From contig NZ_LMOZ01000002.1 of the NCBI RefSeq assembly GCF_001423695.1, positions 992,504 to 1,056,503 on the forward strand: DNA of 64,000 nt, read 5' to 3'. The notes under the pieces are model-generated. The model was given only the letters and a program-made list of their open reading frames with translations. It was not told the origin of the DNA and did not search any database. The stretch comes from Leifsonia sp. Leaf336 (lineage in GTDB: Bacteria > Actinomycetota > Actinomycetes > Actinomycetales > Microbacteriaceae). The position numbers were made by a program, and so were the translations under genes. Below are positions 7,692 through 51,650 of this stretch, in pieces (the first letter of the stretch is position 1; each line of letters opens with the position of its first letter).

Positions 7692-8969
7692 TCAGGCGGT
7701 GCCGCGGACTCGCGCGATGCCGTTCATCACGTGGTAGACGACGATCGCGGCGATGGCGCCGAGCGCGATGCCGTTGAACGTCAGCTGCCCGAGGTTCAGC
7801 GTGAAGTCGCCGATGCCGATGATCAGCGCGGTCGCCGCGGTGAACTGGTTGACCGGCTTCGAGAAGTCGACCTTGTTGTCGAGCCAGATCTTCACGCCGA
7901 TGATGCCGATCAGGCCGTACAGCGCCGTCGTGACCCCGCCCAGCACGCCGGCCGGGATCGTGTTGATCACCGCGCCGACCTTGGGGGACAGGCCGAGCAG
8001 CACCGCGACGATGCCGGCCACCCAGTACGCCGCCGTGGAGTAGACGCGCGTCGCGGCCATCACGCCGATGTTCTCGCCGTACGTGGTCGTTCCCGAGCCT
8101 CCGAAGAAGCCGGCGATCGTGGTCGCGAGACCGTCGGCGAAGAGCGCCCGTCCCGTGAGCTTGTTGACCGAGGGGTCGGTCAGCTGGGCGACGCCGCGGA
8201 TGTGGCCGACGTTCTCGGCGATCAGCACGAGCACGACCGGGAGGAAGGCGGGCAGGATGCCCCACGTCGCGGCGGGGGCGGTGAACGGGTTCGCCGGCAG
8301 GGTGAAGTGCGGGAGGCCGATCCACGGCGCGGCTGCGACCTTGCTGAAGTCCACCTGGCCGACGATCACCGCGAACACGTAGCCGACGACGACGCCCAGG
8401 AAGATCGACAGCCTCCCGAGCATCCCGCGGAACAGCACCGTGCACAGGATCACGGCCGCCAGCGTCACGAGGGCGGTGACCGGCGCCTGCATGAAGTTGT
8501 TCTTGGCCGCGGGGGCGAGGTTGAAGCCGATCAGCGCCACGATCGCGCCGGCGACGATCGGAGGCATCAGCCCGTCGATCCACTTGGTGCCGGTCGCGAC
8601 GACGATCAGACCGACGATCGCGAGCAGGAGGCCGGTGACGACGATGCCGAACAGGGCCGACGGCATGCCGTGCGCCTTCGTCGCCGCCACGATCGGCACG
8701 ATGAACGCGAACGACGAGCCCAGGTAGCTGGGGAGCCGGTTGCGCGTGATCAGCAGGAAGAGCATCGTGCCGACGCCGGAGAACAGCAGCGTCGTGCTCG
8801 GTGGGAACCCGGTGAGCAGCGGCACGAGGAAGGTCGCTCCGAACATCGCGACGACGTGCTGGGCGCCGAGCCCGATCGTGCGCGGCCAGGTCAGCCGCTC
8901 GCCGGGCAGCACGATCTCGTGCGCCCCGACCTTCTTGCCGTCTCCGTGCAGCTTCCAGGGCAGAGCCAT
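7692..8969 (-). CDS. uraA: Uracil permease, NCS2 family
   Basis: A 425-residue membrane protein of the NAT/NCS2 family with about 12-14 hydrophobic segments. It carries the uracil-permease hallmarks QHVVAMFGATFLVPLLTG near residue 38, a VLIAENVGHI segment in TM8 (the UraA substrate Glu/His region) and GGSGTTTYGENIGVMAATRV in TM10. It likely imports uracil by proton symport. The ATG at 8969 is selected; it is preceded by AAGGAC, and the next 42 upstream codons are not family-like. It is divergent from a second nucleobase permease. Confidence 0.9.
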   Translation of the reverse strand: MALPWKLHGDGKKVGAHEIVLPGERLTWPRTIGLGAQHVVAMFGATFLVPLLTGFPPSTTLLFSGVGTMLFLLITRNRLPSYLGSSFAFIVPIVAATKAHGMPSALFGIVVTGLLLAIVGLIVVATGTKWIDGLMPPIVAGAIVALIGFNLAPAAKNNFMQAPVTALVTLAAVILCTVLFRGMLGRLSIFLGVVVGYVFAVIVGQVDFSKVAAAPWIGLPHFTLPANPFTAPAATWGILPAFLPVVLVLIAENVGHIRGVAQLTDPSVNKLTGRALFADGLATTIAGFFGGSGTTTYGENIGVMAATRVYSTAAYWVAGIVAVLLGLSPKVGAVINTIPAGVLGGVTTALYGLIGIIGVKIWLDNKVDFSKPVNQFTAATALIIGIGDFTLNLGQLTFNGIALGAIAAIVVYHVMNGIARVRGTA

Positions 8970-43798: not shown

Positions 43799-44330
43799 GC
43801 GCGCGTCCGCCCTCGCCCGTGCCGATCGGGCCGGGCTCGCCTTTCTCGAGGTCCTCCAGCAGGGCGCGCAGCTCGGCGCGGATGAAGTCTTTGGTGGCCA
43901 TGTCCTTGACCGCCAGGCGCAGCGCGACGACCTCCCTCGCGAGGTACTCGGTGTCGGCGAGGTTGCGCTCCGCACGCTGGCGGTCCTGCTCGATCTGCAC
44001 GCGGTCGCGGTCGTCCTGCCGGTTCTGCGCGAGCAGGATCAGCGGGGCGGCGTACGAGGCCTGCAGCGACAGCACCAGCGTGAGGGCGATGAATCCGAGT
44101 GCGGCCGAGTCGAACCGCCACGCGTTTGGGGCGAGCGTGTTCCACAGCATCCAGGCCGCCACGAAGATGGTCAGCCCCAGGACGAACCAGGGTGTGCCCA
44201 TGCCGCGTGCGATCCACTCCGTGAACCGGCCGAACCGGTCGCTCTGCTCGACCGGGTCGCGCCGGGGGAGCACCGATGTGCGGAGGCCCTTCGGGGCGTC
44301 CAGGCTCGCGTCCTGCCTACCTCGTGCCAC
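43791..44330 (-). CDS. DUF1003 membrane protein
   Basis: A 179-residue protein with two hydrophobic helices at about 48-66 and 75-95. The WMLWNTL and FDSAALGFIALTLVLSLQASYAA regions, followed by the conserved LAQNRQDDRDR, define DUF1003. A cytoplasmic charged coiled region (about 105-170) follows. It overlaps the MgtE-N/CBS gene upstream by 14 bases and mrp downstream by eight, so the three are translated together. In mycobacteria the same trio is adjacent. The function of DUF1003 is unknown; an accessory role to the magnesium-sensor-like protein is inferred. Confidence 0.88.
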   Translation of the reverse strand: MARGRQDASLDAPKGLRTSVLPRRDPVEQSDRFGRFTEWIARGMGTPWFVLGLTIFVAAWMLWNTLAPNAWRFDSAALGFIALTLVLSLQASYAAPLILLAQNRQDDRDRVQIEQDRQRAERNLADTEYLAREVVALRLAVKDMATKDFIRAELRALLEDLEKGEPGPIGTGEGGRARA

Positions 44331-45630
44331 TTCCGCCCCTCCTTCCGTTCACGATGCGGATACTGCCGGTCTCGTCGGACGGCGCCTTCACGGGCTCGTC
44401 CTCGTCTTGACTTCGCCAGTCGTCGGGGAGCAGATAGTCGAGGATGTCGTCGATGGTCACCACCCCGACGAGCCGATGCTTCTCGTCCACCACCGGGACC
44501 GAGACGAGGTTGTAGCTGGCCAGGATGCGCGACACCTCGGCCGCGGAGGTGTCGGCGGTCACCGGCTCCAGGCTGGGGTCGAGGAGCGTGCCGAGGCGCA
44601 CGTGCGGCGGGTAGCGCAGCATCCGCTGGAAGTGCACGATGCCGAGGAACCGTCCGGTGGGCGCCTCGTACGGCGGCAGTGTGACGCACACCGCGGCGCC
44701 GAGCGCGGGGGCGAGCTCGTGCCGGCGGATCAGCGCGAGCCCCTCCGCGACGGTGGCGTCGGCCGAGACGATGATCGGCTCGGTGGTCATGAGGCCGCCC
44801 GCGGTCTCCGGCGCGTAGGTCAGCAGCATGCGGACGTCGTCCGCCTCCTCCGGCTCCATCAGCTCCAGGAGGTGCTCGCCGCGCTCGTCGGAGAGCTGGG
44901 CGATCAGGTCGGCGGCGTCGTCGGGCTGCATCTGATCGAGCACGTCGGCAGCGCGGTCGTCGTCGAGCTGGGAGAGGATCTGCACCTGTTCGCTCTCGGG
45001 CATCTCCTCCAGCACGTCGGCCAGGCGGTCGTCGGGGAGCTCCTCGGCGACCTCCAGCATGCGCTGCTGCGGGAGGTCGAGCAGGGTGTTCGCGAGGTCG
45101 GCTGGCTTGAGCTCCGAGTAGGTCGCGATCAGCTGCTCGGCGGACTGCGCCTCGCCGCGGGCCTGCTTCTCGCGCACCTCGTTCCAGGTCGCGAAGGTGG
45201 TCGGGCCCTTGCCGAACGGGGAGGAGCCGGTCTTCGGGCGGCGCACGAAGAGCTGGCTGACCGCCCACTCGCCGGTGTCGGACTCCTCGATCGCGACATC
45301 CTCGATGGTCGCCTCGCCCGTGCCGTCGGTGAAGACGACCTTGCGGCCGAGCAGCTCGGCGATGACCCGCACCTCGCCGCCGCGCTGCTCGAATCGGCGC
45401 ACGTTGATCAGGCCGTTGGTGATGATCTGCCCACTCGAGATGCTGGTCACTCGACCGATCGAGAGGAACACGCGCCGCTTGCCCGGGATCTCCACGATGA
45501 GACCCACGACGCTGGGCGGATCGTCCTTGCGGTACACCACCAAGACGTCGCGGACGCGTCCGACCCGGTCGCCGACCGGATCGAACACGCTGGTGCCGGC
45601 CAGTCGGGCGACGAAGATGCGGGTGCTCAC
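44317..45630 (-). CDS. Soluble MgtE-N/CBS-domain protein with PRC-barrel-like N-terminus
   Basis: A 437-residue protein. The first ~150 residues form two small beta domains resembling PRC-barrels (VFDPVGDRVGRVRDVLVVYR and LGRKVVFTDGTGEATIEDV). Residues about 160-280 are an MgtE N-terminal superhelix (repeats such as LPDDRLADVLEEMPESEQVQ). Two CBS domains follow (about 285-405), with LMTTEPIIVSADATVAEGL. The membrane channel domain of MgtE is missing, so it cannot transport magnesium alone. Proteins like this are conserved next to DUF1003 and mrp in actinobacteria. GTG start; TAAGTT lies seven bases upstream (45638-45643), so likely leaderless. Confidence 0.87.
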   Translation of the reverse strand: MSTRIFVARLAGTSVFDPVGDRVGRVRDVLVVYRKDDPPSVVGLIVEIPGKRRVFLSIGRVTSISSGQIITNGLINVRRFEQRGGEVRVIAELLGRKVVFTDGTGEATIEDVAIEESDTGEWAVSQLFVRRPKTGSSPFGKGPTTFATWNEVREKQARGEAQSAEQLIATYSELKPADLANTLLDLPQQRMLEVAEELPDDRLADVLEEMPESEQVQILSQLDDDRAADVLDQMQPDDAADLIAQLSDERGEHLLELMEPEEADDVRMLLTYAPETAGGLMTTEPIIVSADATVAEGLALIRRHELAPALGAAVCVTLPPYEAPTGRFLGIVHFQRMLRYPPHVRLGTLLDPSLEPVTADTSAAEVSRILASYNLVSVPVVDEKHRLVGVVTIDDILDYLLPDDWRSQDEDEPVKAPSDETGSIRIVNGRRGGSGTR

Positions 45631-46338: not shown

Positions 46339-48159
46339 ATGGAAGCCGAGAACCCGAGAACCGTGGCGCCCGCCTCGGAGGCCGCACTGCGCGCGCAGTT
46401 CGACACCCTCGCCGCGATGGCCGAGGACCTGGCGGGCCACTTCGCGCCCGGACCGCTGCTGGAGCGCATCCTGCGCCACACCCTCGAGCTGCTCGACTGC
46501 GACAGCGGCTCGATCTGCACCGTCGACGAGGCCTCCGGCACGTACCGCAAAGACGTCGACCTCGGTGTCGGCTGCCAGTCCGGCACGACGTTCCCACTTG
46601 ATGAGGGCGTGACCGGGGAGGTCGTGCGCGCACGCTCCACGGTCCTGTTCGACGAGTACGGGCAGGTGCGCGGAGGCCACATCCAGGGAGCCGATCGCGA
46701 CCTCCTGCACGCGACGATCGGGGTCCCGATCCGCTGGAACGACGCCATCATCGGCGCCGTCGTGGTCTTCAGCCGGGAGGCCGGGCGACGTTTCACCTCG
46801 GAGGAGGCCTCCCTGGTGGAGCGCTTCGCGGCGCACGCGGGCATCGCGATCACCAATGCCCGCCTGCACGCCATCGCGGCCGAGCGGTCGCAGGAGGCCG
46901 CGGTCGCCAGCGAGCGGGAGCGCGTGGTCCGCGACGTCCACGACACCGTCGGGCGCGGCCTCGCCGATATCCTCCTCCGGCTCGACGAGGCGGAGCGGCG
47001 CCTCGCGGTGGGGGAGCCCGCCGGTGAGGCGCTCGCCCAGGCTCGGCGTGCGGCCCGCTCCGCGCTGAGCGAGACTCAGCGCACCGTGCTCGGTCTCGGG
47101 CCCGAGCAGCTCGACGGCCGTTCGCTCAGCGAGGCGATCGCCCTCGAGCTGGCGTGGGCGGAGTCGGCCGCTGGGCTCAGCACCCGGCTGGTCGTCGTCG
47201 GCGAGCCCGGCGCGCTCGCGCCGGAGACGGTCCGGCAGCTGTTCCGGATCGTACAGGAGTCGCTCACCAACGTGGTCGAGCACGCGTCGGCGCATCGCGT
47301 GCGCGTCGGGCTCGTCTACGGCGAGCGCGAGGTCACGGCGCTCATCGAGGACGACGGCCGCGGATTCGACGTCACGGGCCTCAGCCGTCCGCCGAACCGA
47401 CCGCTGCGCGGCCTGGGCCTGCAGGGGCTCGCCGCCCGCGCCGAGCACCTCGGCGGCAGCGTGCACGTCGAGTCCACGCCGCAGTGGGGCACGCGGGTGC
47501 GGGCCGAGCTGCCCGTCGCCGCGCTGTCGCCCGAGCCCGACCGGTCGCGGTGGCGGCTGCTGATCGTGCACCCCATCCCACTGATCCGTTCGGGGCTGGT
47601 GCGCTCGCTCGCGCTGGCCGAGCCCGACATCCAGGTGGTCGCGGAGGTCGGCGACGCCGAGGCGGCGATGGAGGCGTTCGATCTGCTGCGGCCCGACGTC
47701 GTCCTCTCCGCTCTCGATCTGCCGCACGTCGACGGTACGCAGTTGACCTCCCACCTGCGCGCGGTGGACGACGAGGTGCGGGTGGTGCTGCTGATCGGGT
47801 CGATCGCCGATGACCGGCTGATCGGTGCGGCGGGCGTCGGAGCCGCCGGCTTCGTCGAGCTGAGCGCCGAGCCCGCGTCGATCGCGCGCGCGGTCGTCGC
47901 GGCGGCGCGGGGCGACCTCCTGCTCAGCCCCGAGATCCTGAGCCGATTCTCGATCTCGCTCACGGGCGGCCCCGAGCCGCTGACCGCCCGCGAGCGGGAG
48001 GTGCGCACTCTCGTCGAGCAAGGGATCACCGACAAGGCCATCGCGGCCGAGCTGCACCTCTCGGTGAAGACTGTCGAGAAGCATGTCGGAGCGCTGCTGC
48101 GCAAGACGGGTGCGGCGAACCGCACCGCGCTGGCCGGGCTCGCCTCCGGCCGCCGCTGA
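46339..48159 (+). CDS. Histidine kinase fused to degenerate receiver and LuxR-type HTH
   Basis: A 606-residue fusion. Residues about 20-175 are a GAF domain. A HisKA_3 dimerization region follows with His201 in RDVHDTVGRGL. The HATPase has Asn311 in QESLTNVVEHA, the G1 box DDGRGFD (338-344) and GLGLQGL near 358, so the kinase looks intact. Residues about 405-530 align with a NarL-type receiver, but the acidic pair is His411-Pro412, the phospho-acceptor aspartate position is Ala458, and the conserved Lys is Leu508. Residues 548-604 are a LuxR/GerE helix-turn-helix (LTAREREVRTLVEQGITDKA). Output is probably controlled by GAF ligand or conformation rather than receiver phosphorylation. No separate regulator is adjacent. 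Confidence 0.9.
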   Translation: MEAENPRTVAPASEAALRAQFDTLAAMAEDLAGHFAPGPLLERILRHTLELLDCDSGSICTVDEASGTYRKDVDLGVGCQSGTTFPLDEGVTGEVVRARSTVLFDEYGQVRGGHIQGADRDLLHATIGVPIRWNDAIIGAVVVFSREAGRRFTSEEASLVERFAAHAGIAITNARLHAIAAERSQEAAVASERERVVRDVHDTVGRGLADILLRLDEAERRLAVGEPAGEALAQARRAARSALSETQRTVLGLGPEQLDGRSLSEAIALELAWAESAAGLSTRLVVVGEPGALAPETVRQLFRIVQESLTNVVEHASAHRVRVGLVYGEREVTALIEDDGRGFDVTGLSRPPNRPLRGLGLQGLAARAEHLGGSVHVESTPQWGTRVRAELPVAALSPEPDRSRWRLLIVHPIPLIRSGLVRSLALAEPDIQVVAEVGDAEAAMEAFDLLRPDVVLSALDLPHVDGTQLTSHLRAVDDEVRVVLLIGSIADDRLIGAAGVGAAGFVELSAEPASIARAVVAAARGDLLLSPEILSRFSISLTGGPEPLTAREREVRTLVEQGITDKAIAAELHLSVKTVEKHVGALLRKTGAANRTALAGLASGRR

Positions 48160-48197
48160 ATCGCGGTCGCGGGCTGCAGGTCGCCGCTGCCCGGGCG

Positions 48198-48231
48198 GGG
48201 AATCCCTACCCGGCGGATGGGGGATCCTCCC
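48198..48231. promoter_or_regulatory. Paired small palindromes upstream of the aldolase operon
   Basis: GGGAATCCC (48198-48206) and GGGGGATCCTCCC (48219-48231) lie about 20 bases apart. A TAGCCT -10 candidate follows at 48255-48260. They could be operator sites for the adjacent LuxR-output fusion protein; this is inferred from position. Confidence 0.35.
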
Positions 48232-48285
48232 GTGTCGCGGCGGGACCGCGGCAGCCTAGCCTCCAAGTGGACGAGGAGGTCGGTC

Positions 48286-49146
48286 ATGCCCGTGGTATCC
48301 CTGAAGGAGATCGTCGACAGGGCGTTCGAGGGCCGCTACGGCGTCCCCGCGATCAACATCGTGAACGACCTGACGCTGGAGGCCGTGCTGGCCGGAGCGG
48401 TCGAAGCGCACTCGCCGGTGATCGTGCAGACCTCGGTGAAGACGGTCAAGTCGATCGGCTCCGACGTCCTCTTCGCGATGTGGGAGGCCATGACCGCCGG
48501 CATCGAGGTGCCGGTCACCCTGCACCTCGACCACTGCCCGGAGCGCGCGGTCATCACCGAGTGCCTCGACCGCGGCTGGAACTCGGTGCTGTTCGACGCC
48601 TCCACCCTCACGGTCGAGGAGAACCAGCGCCAGACGGTCGAGGTGGTCGCCGAGGCCCGCAGGCACGGTGCGCACGTCGAGGGCGAGATCGAGGCGATCA
48701 AGGGCGTGGAGGACGGAATCGGCGCCGACACCGAACCGCGCAGGCAGAGCCTGGAGACCGCCGTCACCTTCATCCGCGAGACCGGCGTCGACGTCTTCGC
48801 GCCGTCGATCGGCAACGCGCACGGCGTGTACTCGGCGACCCCCGAGCTTGATTTCGAGCGGGTGACCGAACTGGTGGAGGCGACCGGCGTGCCGATCGCC
48901 CTGCACGGCGGCAGCGGGATGACGGACGCGCAGTTCCACGACCTGATCTCGCGCGGCTGCGCCAAGGTGAACATCTCCACGGCCCTCAAGATCGAGTTCA
49001 TGAAATCGAGCCTGGCGTTCCTCAAGGGCGCGGAGGCCGCGGACAAGTGGGACCCGCCCTCACTGTTCCGCGACGTTCGTGGGCACATCGTCGACCTGAC
49101 GACGGGGCTCGCCGCGACGTTCGGCAGCGCGGGCAAGGCGTGGTGA
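48286..49146 (+). CDS. Class II ketose-bisphosphate aldolase
   Basis: A 286-residue class II aldolase. The catalytic Asp and first zinc ligand are in HLDHCPE (Asp82, His83), further ligands in GNAHGVY (His179) and ALHGGSGM (His207); the phosphate-binding loop NISTALK follows. The sequence is closer to the tagatose/ketose-bisphosphate (GatY/FbaA-like) group than to housekeeping Fba, which it probably supplements. It cleaves or forms a C-C bond with dihydroxyacetone phosphate. A good ribosome site GAGGAGG precedes the ATG. It begins an operon with HAD, dhaL and dhaK. Confidence 0.9.
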   Translation: MPVVSLKEIVDRAFEGRYGVPAINIVNDLTLEAVLAGAVEAHSPVIVQTSVKTVKSIGSDVLFAMWEAMTAGIEVPVTLHLDHCPERAVITECLDRGWNSVLFDASTLTVEENQRQTVEVVAEARRHGAHVEGEIEAIKGVEDGIGADTEPRRQSLETAVTFIRETGVDVFAPSIGNAHGVYSATPELDFERVTELVEATGVPIALHGGSGMTDAQFHDLISRGCAKVNISTALKIEFMKSSLAFLKGAEAADKWDPPSLFRDVRGHIVDLTTGLAATFGSAGKAW

Positions 49147-49150
49147 GCCG

Positions 49151-49927
49151 ATGCCCGCGCTGATCTTCGACTGCGACGGCGTGCTCGCAGACACCGAGCG
49201 CAACGGGCACCTGCCGGCGTTCAACCAGACCTTCGCCGAGTTCGGGGTGCCGGTGCACTGGAGCGACGACGACTACCGGCAGAAGGTCCTGATCGGGGGA
49301 GGCAAGGAACGGATGGCCAGCACCCTCACGCCCGAGTTCGTCGCCGCGAACGGCCTCCCGGCCGACGAGGAAGGGCAGCGCGCTCTGCTCGCCGAGTGGC
49401 ACAAGCGCAAGACGGCCATCTACACCGACCTGGTGGCGACGGGGGCCCTTCCGGGGCGACCGGGCATCGCCCGGATCGTGCAGGAGGCCGCGGACGCGGG
49501 CTGGACGCTGGCCGTGGCCTCCACCTCGGCCGAGCCATCGGTGCGCGCGGTGCTCGTGCACGCGGTCGGCGATACCCTCGCCGAACGGTTCTCGGTGTTC
49601 GCGGGCGACATCGTCGCGCACAAGAAGCCGGCGCCCGACATCTACCTGCTGGCTCTCGAGCGCCTCGGAATCGGGCCAGACGACGCAGTCGTGGTGGAGG
49701 ACAGCGGCAACGGCGTGCGGTCTGCGATCGACGCGGGGCTGCGAACGCTCGTGACCGTGAGCGCCTACACCACCGAGGAGGACTTCAGCGGAGCCTCCCT
49801 CGTCGTGTCGTCGCTGGGCGATGCCGACGAACCCGCCGAGGTGCTCGCCGCACCGGTCGGCGTGAAGCCGGGACCGCTGGTGGAACTCTCGGACATCGCG
49901 GCGGTCCTCGACCGTCCGCGCCCCTGA
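49151..49927 (+). CDS. HAD-superfamily hydrolase, CbbY/beta-phosphoglucomutase-like
   Basis: A 258-residue HAD phosphatase, subfamily IA. Motif 1 is IFDCDGVLADTE (nucleophile Asp7/general acid Asp9 region), motif 2 lies in AVASTSAEPS, motif 3 is Lys in HKKPAPDIYL and motif 4 is VVVEDSGNGVRSA. A helical cap spans about 15-85. It likely removes phosphate from, or isomerizes, a small sugar phosphate of the same pathway as its operon neighbours. It starts four bases after the aldolase stop. Confidence 0.9.
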   Translation: MPALIFDCDGVLADTERNGHLPAFNQTFAEFGVPVHWSDDDYRQKVLIGGGKERMASTLTPEFVAANGLPADEEGQRALLAEWHKRKTAIYTDLVATGALPGRPGIARIVQEAADAGWTLAVASTSAEPSVRAVLVHAVGDTLAERFSVFAGDIVAHKKPAPDIYLLALERLGIGPDDAVVVEDSGNGVRSAIDAGLRTLVTVSAYTTEEDFSGASLVVSSLGDADEPAEVLAAPVGVKPGPLVELSDIAAVLDRPRP

Positions 49928-49952
49928 TCGGACGCACACGCAAGGAGTGGAC

Positions 49953-50597
49953 ATGACCCAGAGCTTCGATGACGTCGAGTTCGTCGTGCGCACGATCGCG
50001 CAGACAGCCGTCGACAACGAGAAGGCGTTCGGCGACCTCGACTCGGTCGTCGGGGACGGCGACTTCGGTTTCTCGCTCGCCCGGGGCTTCGAGATCGTCC
50101 TGGCGGACTGGGACGGTTACGACCGCAGTGACATCGGCACCTTTCTGCAGAAGGTCGCCATGGCGATCACCAGCCGCATCGGCGGAACGTCCGGGCCGAT
50201 CTGGGGCACGGCGTTCCTGCGCGCTGCGACGGTCTCCAAAGGCAAAGACACGCTGACGGGCGAGGAGGCGGTCGCGATGCTGCGCGCGGCGATCGAGGGC
50301 ATCAAAGCCCGCGGGAACGCCGATGTCGGCGACAAGACCCTCCTCGACGCCCTCGTCCCGATGACCGACACCATCGAGTCCGGCGTGCAGGCCGGCACCG
50401 ACAGCGACGACATCGTCGCGGCGGCCGCCGTGTCCGCCCGGGAGGCCGCCGACGCGACCGTGACCATGCAGGCCATGCGCGGTCGCGCTGCCTACACAGG
50501 CGAGCGCAGCATCGGCTCGCCCGATCCGGGGGCCGTCGCGGTCGCGGTCATCCTCGAACGACTCGCACCCGCGTGGCCCGACCGGCCGCGCGGGTGA
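49953..50597 (+). CDS. dhaL: Dihydroxyacetone kinase subunit DhaL-like
   Basis: A 214-residue nucleotide-binding kinase subunit. The magnesium/nucleotide aspartates correspond to Asp30, Asp35 and Asp37 in DLDSVVGDGDFG, matching E. coli DhaL numbering, and GGTSGPIWGTAFLRA is the second conserved loop. The usual GDGDHG is GDGDFG, a change that may reflect a different kinase subtype. No DhaM (PTS phosphotransfer) gene is present, so ATP may be used directly. AAGGAG lies five bases before the ATG. Works with DhaK below. Confidence 0.9.
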   Translation: MTQSFDDVEFVVRTIAQTAVDNEKAFGDLDSVVGDGDFGFSLARGFEIVLADWDGYDRSDIGTFLQKVAMAITSRIGGTSGPIWGTAFLRAATVSKGKDTLTGEEAVAMLRAAIEGIKARGNADVGDKTLLDALVPMTDTIESGVQAGTDSDDIVAAAAVSAREAADATVTMQAMRGRAAYTGERSIGSPDPGAVAVAVILERLAPAWPDRPRG

Positions 50598-50654: not shown

Positions 50655-51650
50655 ATGAAGAAGTTCGTCAACGATCCGCTGAAGTACGTCCCCGACATGC
50701 TGAAGGGCATCGCGCTCGCCAATCCGGACACGCTGCGCTATGTGCCGGAGTACAACCTGATCATGCGGGCGGACGCCCCGCGCGACGACAAGGTCTCGAT
50801 CGTCCAGGGCTCCGGTTCCGGTCACGAGCCGGCGCACGTCCTCACTGTCGGCAAGGGGATGCTCGACGGCGCCTGCCCGGGAGACGTGTTCGCCGCGCCG
50901 CCGATGGACTACGTGTACGAGACCACCAAACTGCTCGCCTCGCCGAAAGGCGTGCTGCTGCTGGTGAACAACTACACGGGCGACAAGATGGCGTTCGACA
51001 TGGCCCAGGAGATGAGCCTCGCGGACGGCGTGAACGTCCGGACACTCTTCATCGACGACGATGTCGCCGTCCAGGACTCCACGTACACGGTCGGCCGCCG
51101 CGGCGTCGCAGGCAACTTCTTCGTGATGAAGGCGGTCGGCGCGGCGTCCGAGGCCGGGGCCGATCTCGACGAGGTCGTCCGGATCGGCGAGAAGGTCAAC
51201 TCGGTCACCCGGACGATGGGCCTCGCGCTCACCGCGTGCACGCCGCCGGCGAAAGGATCGCCGCTGTTCGAGCTCGGCGACGACGAGATCGAGATCGGCG
51301 TCGGCATCCACGGCGAGCCCGGTCGGAGGCGCGCGAAGATCGAGCCCTCGGATGCGCTCGTCGACATCCTGCTCGACCCGGTGGTGGCCGACCTGCCGTT
51401 CGAGCGCGGCGACCGGGTCGCGCTCATGGTCAACGGCCTCGGCGGTACGCCGATCAGCGAGCTCTACATCGCGTACGGCCACGCGCACGAGCAGCTCGCG
51501 GCGAAGGGCATCACCGTCGGCCGCAGCTACGTGGGGGAGTACTGCACCTCGCTCGACATGGCGGGTGCATCGATCACGCTCGTCCGTCTCGACGACGAGA
51601 TCGAGAGCCTCCTCGCCGCGCCCGCCGAGATCGGTCTCCGCATCTTCTGA
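50655..51650 (+). CDS. dhaK: Dihydroxyacetone (or related ketose) kinase subunit DhaK
   Basis: A 331-residue substrate-binding subunit. His219 in IGVGIHGEPG is the covalent hemiaminal-forming histidine that binds the ketose carbonyl. QGSGSGHEPAHVLTVGKGML near residue 51 and the DVFAAPPMDYVYETTK segment are standard DhaK. With DhaL it phosphorylates dihydroxyacetone or a short ketose such as erythrulose. A 57-base gap with AAGGAGC-like ribosome site separates it from dhaL. The operon ends at palindrome copy 3. Confidence 0.92.
   Translation: MKKFVNDPLKYVPDMLKGIALANPDTLRYVPEYNLIMRADAPRDDKVSIVQGSGSGHEPAHVLTVGKGMLDGACPGDVFAAPPMDYVYETTKLLASPKGVLLLVNNYTGDKMAFDMAQEMSLADGVNVRTLFIDDDVAVQDSTYTVGRRGVAGNFFVMKAVGAASEAGADLDEVVRIGEKVNSVTRTMGLALTACTPPAKGSPLFELGDDEIEIGVGIHGEPGRRRAKIEPSDALVDILLDPVVADLPFERGDRVALMVNGLGGTPISELYIAYGHAHEQLAAKGITVGRSYVGEYCTSLDMAGASITLVRLDDEIESLLAAPAEIGLRIF

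Follow-up and report, generated by a model that had tools for sequence, protein, structure and literature searches.

A protein that carries a histidine kinase, a receiver stripped of its catalytic residues and a DNA-binding domain in one chain raises the question of what the kinase is kept for and how a signal reaches the DNA. Such a protein is encoded by Leifsonia sp. Leaf336 within a 64,000-nucleotide stretch of DNA (the window), where the gene and its domains are arranged as follows.

46339..48159, forward strand: fused regulator gene, 606 aa, domain order GAF - HisKA_3 - HATPase_c - pseudo-receiver - LuxR/GerE helix-turn-helix
46456..46851, forward strand: GAF sensor domain (GAF_2), residues 40-171; Pfam match over cut-off
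46912..47112, forward strand: HisKA_3 dimerisation/phospho-acceptor domain, residues 192-258; Pfam match over cut-off; His201 at 46939-46941; Arg206
47233..47520, forward strand: HATPase_c ATP-binding domain, residues 299-394; Pfam match over cut-off; Asn311, DDGRGF, GLGL
47560..47877, forward strand: pseudo-receiver (Response_reg), residues 408-513; Pfam match over cut-off; His411-Pro412, Ala458 (47710-47712), Ile486, Leu508
47977..48141, forward strand: LuxR/GerE helix-turn-helix, residues 547-601; Pfam match over cut-off

The answer that we favour, and consider probable from sequence comparison, is that the protein is a GAF-sensing activator dedicated to a single operon, which was derived from a fused two-component system and has kept its kinase as an in-cis modulator.

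The reading frame (46339-48159) begins with ATG and contains zero internal stops, and the claim of a first-pass annotation that kinase, pseudo-receiver and helix-turn-helix (HTH) form one polypeptide is borne out by this single 606-aa frame with its five Pfam domains, in which sensor and DNA-binding domain are joined in one chain. The HTH was rightly called intact (GerE, residues 547-601, over the Pfam cut-off), and it is recognised by sequence, together with the receiver fold, as being of the NarL/FixJ type (Pfam, PDB search). In the GAF domain, Tyr69, Lys71, Asp74, Cys79, Tyr107 and His114 are unvarying in 13 aligned full-length members and may line the candidate ligand pocket. Full-length matches to the regulator (E below 1e-200) occur in 8 of 60 related genomes searched and are patchy in its own genus (6/28 genomes), and some match, mostly to separate kinases or regulators, is present in 54 of the 60. 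In a scan of GTDB contigs, fused relatives were found in Leifsonia (the nearest named relatives), other Microbacteriaceae, Puerhibacterium, Cryobacterium, Propionibacteriaceae and Tessaracoccus, with two Streptomyces records and one Cellulomonas record cut or broken. The closest relative is 88% identical. A frameshift or an assembly join, of which the annotation had warned near residue 400, is ruled out because the fusion forms one ORF in several genera. Isolated apparent breaks among the relatives were seen in L048/L021, which are near-identical records, and in L057 and L059, where the frame changes, in L059 with low-complexity sequence. The L048 regulator (near 8299, equal to L021) is from Microbacterium sp. 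STN6 and has one in-frame stop inside GAF with the remainder open, and may represent either a pseudogene or a sequencing error. The family set comprised 53 ORFs with strong GAF and HTH matches, 46 of them distinct and 40 of these 46 with a receiver; residue counts were limited to ORFs with GAF above 90 bits and HTH above 60 bits, and L057, L058, L059, L183/L184 and the Actinomycetospora loci were left out of them. The piece of L048 behind its stop is included among the 46 rows and among the 38 rows for position 206, and was omitted from the counts of His201 and Asn311 by acceptor and from the pairwise dN/dS set.

When aligned with six ordinary response regulators, the active-site columns of the Leaf336 receiver read His411-Pro412, Ala458, Ile486 and Leu508 in place of D-D, D, T and K, which confirms the losses originally annotated. 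The domain is recognised as a receiver and all five of its active-site residues are replaced, and in excerpts of a review a receiver match without one or more of these five residues is defined as a pseudo-receiver (PMC12632262). The expectation that the residues might be lost throughout the family holds for the switch Lys (508), which is found in 0/39 receivers having a residue there, but not for the acceptor position 458, which among 40 receivers is Asp in 22, Asn in 8, His in 3, Gly in 3, Ala in 2 and Pro in 2; homologues with Asp at 458, which the annotation had named as evidence against its own reading, therefore do exist and include the 88% relative. The first acidic position (411) is His in 28 and Asp in 8 of the 40 receivers, and position 486 is Thr in 4/40 and Ser in 1/40. 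Because the closest relative has Asp458, Ala458 of the Leaf336 regulator is evidently a recent local change, and on a tree built from GAF and HTH the acceptor state at 458 switches at least five times. Of all domains the receiver is conserved least, with an average pairwise identity of 0.50 vs 0.62 for GAF and 0.68 for HTH; its dN/dS against the 88% relative is 0.22, and it appears to remain constrained. Seven rows of genus g148 keep Asp411-Asp412 together with Asp458. The same review points out that phosphorylation can persist after replacements at DD, T or K (PMC12632262). Since 22/40 receivers keep the acceptor Asp and the seven g148 rows the acidic pair, some relatives may still be phosphorylated to a residual extent, a point against the reading that we favour.

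The His, N box and G boxes of a phosphorelay-type kinase are present in the regulator, so that the annotated His201, Asn311 and glycine boxes (DDGRGF and GLGL included) stand. His201 and Asn311 are conserved in 38/39 kinase-bearing members and, when sorted by acceptor, both are kept in 21/21 members with Asp458 and in 16/17 without it. All five domains have a dN/dS below 0.4 in the six comparisons with the Leaf336 gene; for the DHp and ATPase domains it is 0.08-0.29 in seven acceptor-less pairs and 0.08-0.50 in six other full-length pairs, some dS values being saturated, and it does not exceed 0.50 in any domain of any full-length pair with usable dS. As His201, Asn311 and low dN/dS are retained without the acceptor, the kinase is, by these measures, kept for something other than Asp458. 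The conserved His201, Asn311 and glycine boxes are at the same time what a working phosphodonor would show, and this counts against the reading that we favour.

A His variant of the phosphatase motif is known, which gives the form DxxxQ/H. Excerpts of the source on HisKA_3 kinases give the Gln of DxxxQ as their phosphatase motif (PMC3510030). At the corresponding position 206, Arg is found in 31/38 family members and Gln in 7/38; the Leaf336 regulator carries Arg206, so the DxxxQ/H motif is absent from it. A scan of 38 loci of other kinases gave 33 H-box matches in 30 of them, one match perhaps being due to chance, and all 33 have Gln (28) or His (5), with Arg in 0/33. The rows with Gln206 are exactly the seven g148 rows with Asp411-Asp412 and Asp458 (7/7 against 0/31), and because all of them lie on one tree branch, the correlation counts as a single event, on which phosphatase Gln and metal pocket appear to have been lost together. 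The broken Streptomyces record L059 has Arg206 with Asp-Arg. The combination of Asp-Asp, Asp458 and phosphatase Gln in the g148 rows, like Asp458 in 22/40 receivers and in the 88% relative, would be expected if a residual in-cis phosphorelay ran from His201 to the attached receiver, either through an alternative residue or through Asp458 in relatives, with Ala458 as a local loss. Such a relay is, however, unlikely in view of the switch Lys missing from 39/39 receivers, the scarcity of Thr (4/40) and Ser (1/40), the His at the first acidic position in 28/40, and the at least five acceptor changes that took place on the tree without a relaxed kinase. The claim that the usual phosphotransfer does not reach the receiver of the Leaf336 protein is supported, most strongly by the relatives at the same operon that have dropped kinase and receiver entirely and nevertheless keep the operator.

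The likely target of the regulator lies directly behind it, in an operon that the first-pass annotation missed together with its conservation and its operator.

48286..49146, forward strand: class II ketose-bisphosphate aldolase, first gene behind the operator; Pfam match over cut-off, all NCBIfam names under theirs
49151..49927, forward strand: HAD-family phosphatase; profile match
49947..50597, forward strand: DhaL; over NCBIfam cut-off
50655..51650, forward strand: DhaK; over NCBIfam cut-off

The same gene order adjoins the regulator in 11 of the 16 loci of the contig scan (L044-L059; the L052 contig stops after DhaL). The regulator sits behind DhaK in L051 and L053. In L050 the order of DhaK and DhaL is reversed and both are distant, and in L055 and L057 a distant aldolase is found 1.3-2.3 kb further on. 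Among 349 Microbacteriaceae genomes the GAF regulator is present in 27 and the HAD gene in 42, and among 394 genomes of the class they are present in 12 and 14, respectively; every genome with the regulator also has the HAD gene (27/27 and 12/12; hypergeometric P 7e-30 and 4e-21, values that ignore ancestry). The regulator is directly beside the operon in 25/27 Microbacteriaceae genomes, in one of them behind it, the exceptions being L164, about 8.5 kb off, and G368, where the two are on separate contigs; like L164, the relative L206 is set apart from its operon, the distances of the two being 5-9 kb. Fifteen HAD genomes lack a GAF match, and in one of these, G256, a diverged GAF-HTH protein, L195, adjoins the operon. 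Aldolase-HAD operons with neither regulator nor operator were also found (L186-L194, L196-L198, L207, L208, L214 and L215), 13/16 of them with a DhaL and DhaK match. A DhaM-like PTS subunit is encoded at G000:C1:1319768-1320127, far from the dhaLK genes of the same genome. The gene at 44317-45630 (reverse strand) encodes a 437-aa PRC-barrel/MgtE_N/CBS protein, with PRC under cut-off, which matches only the first part of a magnesium transporter model; beside it lie genes for a YflT-domain and a DUF1003 protein, and the close Leifsonia relatives L044 and L045 show the same arrangement. An Actinomycetospora relative, L061 (7494-9041), has GAF, ATPase and HTH without HisKA_3 and stands away from a DHA operon. 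The large subunit of a diol/glycerol dehydratase is encoded near it, at this one of the six such loci inspected, and this neighbour hints at a triose or polyol ligand.

The following elements were located between the regulator and the aldolase.

48193..48210, forward strand: conserved candidate operator site A, GGGCGGGGAATCCCTACC; 20.1 bits, best of the 64-kb window, this locus being in the training set
48216..48233, reverse strand: second candidate operator site B, inverted; 7.6 bits, beginning 23 bp after the start of site A
48257..48262, forward strand: putative -10-like hexamer TAGCCT, picked by eye; similar hexamers are similarly placed in related loci

The operator motif, ATGGGGGGTTTCCCTACC (18 bits), was derived with a Gibbs sampler from the 200 bp before the aldolase in 36 loci and applied as a PWM. 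In 12/13 regulator-bearing loci outside the training set, at most one of 200 shuffles was as good, four of the held-out loci (L168, L201, L203 and L205) being near kin of training loci. All five held-out GAF-HTH loci score 17.6-27.2 bits with 0/200 shuffles as good in each, and the held-out L170 (GAF-receiver-HTH) reaches only 9.3 bits, with 13/200 shuffles as good. The operons without regulator score at most 5.3 bits in 16/16 cases (best L208, 12/200 shuffles as good), ten of the 16 having more distant aldolases. A second site above the 99% background level, 19-27 bp away, is present in 28/41 full-length loci vs 1/5 GAF-HTH loci, which is no more than suggestive of kinase loss going with a single operator site (Fisher p 0.055, ancestry uncorrected); in the 28 full-length loci the second site recurs at a spacing of 21-24 bp. 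A pattern search of the genome for a wider regulon returned 8 sites, this operator included, vs 11 in the reversed control; since these matches are no more than in the control, the HTH looks dedicated to this operon, and no other targets are claimed. A consensus scan of 48140-48320 for a sigma-70 promoter or a terminator found none, the same as in shuffles. If TAGCCT is the -10 element, the candidate sites would centre near -67 and -44, a usual position for an activator.

Shortened or altered regulators occur naturally at the same locus. Kinase and receiver are both gone in five GAF-HTH-only relatives (L161, L169, L171, L177 and L185), the kinase alone is gone in L170 (GAF-receiver-HTH), L209 is full length with His201 changed to Ala and Asn311 to Arg, and L195 is the diverged GAF-HTH protein, whose middle is unrecognised; L161, L170, L171, L209 and L195 were confirmed by Pfam, and L169, L177 and L185 were typed by family profiles alone. 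By parsimony on the GAF and HTH tree, from which L195 and L209 were omitted, the short forms need 3 changes. A single clade of the six short rows is rejected (AU p 0.007), as is one of the five GAF-HTH rows (p 0.031), in tests whose groups were named after the tree was seen. The placement of L161 and L170 is less sure because they are on long branches, for which both were flagged. All five GAF-HTH loci keep the candidate operator without a kinase.

These forms bear on two further explanations. The kinase could act in trans on a separate response regulator, the HTH of the same protein serving as a DNA tether or having a function of its own, much as the first-pass annotation had offered as its second option, and the conserved kinase residues (38/39 members), the purifying selection on a kinase without an in-cis acceptor and the 34 other receiver matches in the genome count in its favour. 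The proposal has so far found no support, however, and we judge it improbable: as annotated, no partner regulator gene is adjacent, only one of the 35 receiver matches of the genome lying in the window, namely the protein's own, and among the same-contig matches listed the nearest other one is found at C2:1079121, some 23 kb beyond the window end. The kinase is moreover missing, by 3 changes on the tree, from six relatives that retain the operon, five of which have lost the receiver too and show a clear operator, and, with no more operator matches in the genome than in the control, the HTH looks dedicated to one operon. Alternatively, kinase and receiver could be a functionless relic heading for deletion, with the GAF and HTH ends sufficing, as the GAF-HTH forms at the same operon and the low identity of the receiver would suggest; a dN/dS of at most 0.50 in all domains of all full-length pairs with usable dS and the lack of drift of His201 and Asn311 in 38/39 kinase-bearing members make this very unlikely.

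According to the reading that we favour, the protein would activate transcription of the aldolase-HAD-DhaL-DhaK operon, to which it is dedicated, and would descend from the fusion of a histidine kinase with a NarL-type regulator. The metabolite sensed by its cytosolic GAF domain would most likely be a C3/C4 ketose or a pathway intermediate, and the signal would pass to the HTH by a conformational change via the kinase dimer and the pseudo-receiver, with no Asp phosphorylation involved. The HTH would then bind the inverted sites at 48193-48210 and 48216-48233, which come from comparative genomics and which would lie upstream of a promoter without sigma-70 consensus. The kinase core, being under selection, is probably a dimerising module, and its ATP or phospho-His state may tune DNA binding in cis. 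The order of losses, on a tree whose root is not fixed, may have started with the switch Lys, followed by the metal pocket and the phosphatase Gln and then repeatedly by the acceptor Asp, and in several lineages the last step would have been the complete removal of kinase and receiver. The kinase module would be optional, because in several lineages a GAF-HTH protein would serve the same operator by itself. It is conceivable, although the balance is somewhat against it, that a kinase no longer donating to any Asp became an in-cis allosteric module, whose ATP or phospho-His status sets the state of pseudo-receiver and HTH and in which Gln was traded for a conserved Arg. The suggestion of a one-component, GAF-sensing transcription factor that is built on a kinase scaffold gains from the relatives that lost both kinase and receiver and keep the operator, and would extend to the Leaf336 protein itself by inference.

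Several known systems resemble parts of this regulator. Residues 406-602 match the receiver and HTH of NarL/FixJ regulators (VraR, NarL and DevR; PDB search), from which the Leaf336 protein differs in lacking acceptor Asp, acidic pair, Thr and Lys and in having a kinase fused in front. The His and Asn are conserved in its DHp and ATPase domains, which are like those of the HisKA_3 kinase DesK (PDB search), and its GAF input is like that of DevS, which it matches weakly; unlike DesK and DevS, the Leaf336 kinase is fused to a pseudo-receiver and HTH, has Arg for the Gln of DxxxQ and has no adjacent cognate regulator. Hybrid two-component systems of Bacteroides likewise unite sensor, kinase, receiver and HTH in a single polypeptide that is encoded next to catabolic genes, and have membrane sensors, a working receiver and an AraC-type HTH, whereas the Leaf336 regulator is HisKA_3, LuxR-type and receiver-dead. 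Dihydroxyacetone kinase operons are regulated by DhaR, an AAA+ enhancer-binding protein with a sigma-54 interaction domain, and by DhaS, which is of the TetR type. The proposed control of dhaKL genes is a likeness to both, and no Pfam match to the AAA+ domain of DhaR or the TetR-type domain of DhaS was found in the 606-aa regulator. GAF-LuxR factors are also a known kind of regulator, and among the matches listed from the open-licence literature none dealt with this regulator or with control of a dhaKL operon by a GAF/LuxR protein.

Pseudo-receivers and aspartate-less receivers such as JadR1, RitR and BldM share with the Leaf336 protein the receiver fold without catalytic residues and the DNA-binding output (PMC12632262, PMC4395418). 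Of the 20 pseudo-receivers that the review covers, all but two are orphans without a known kinase, whereas here the kinase is in the same chain (PMC12632262). The hybrid kinases ShkA and CikA, as described there, do combine kinase and pseudo-receiver in one chain, but their pseudo-receiver gates the kinase, and in the Leaf336 protein a LuxR HTH provides the output, without a true receiver behind it (PMC12632262). Pseudo-receivers and hybrid kinases are known kinds already, and the combination with its operon and the graded series did not appear among the matches listed from the open-licence literature: a pseudo-receiver joined to its would-be kinase in a single polypeptide, with one candidate target operon and a defined operator next to it, and with matched natural forms that are complete with a mostly intact pocket, complete with a dead pocket, kinase-dead, kinase-deleted or GAF-HTH only. 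With these forms, the roles of the pseudo-receiver and of the acceptor-less kinase are directly testable on one type of DNA site. If the kinase has indeed become an in-cis allosteric module, the family would represent a distinct route from two-component to one-component regulation, caught at several stages.
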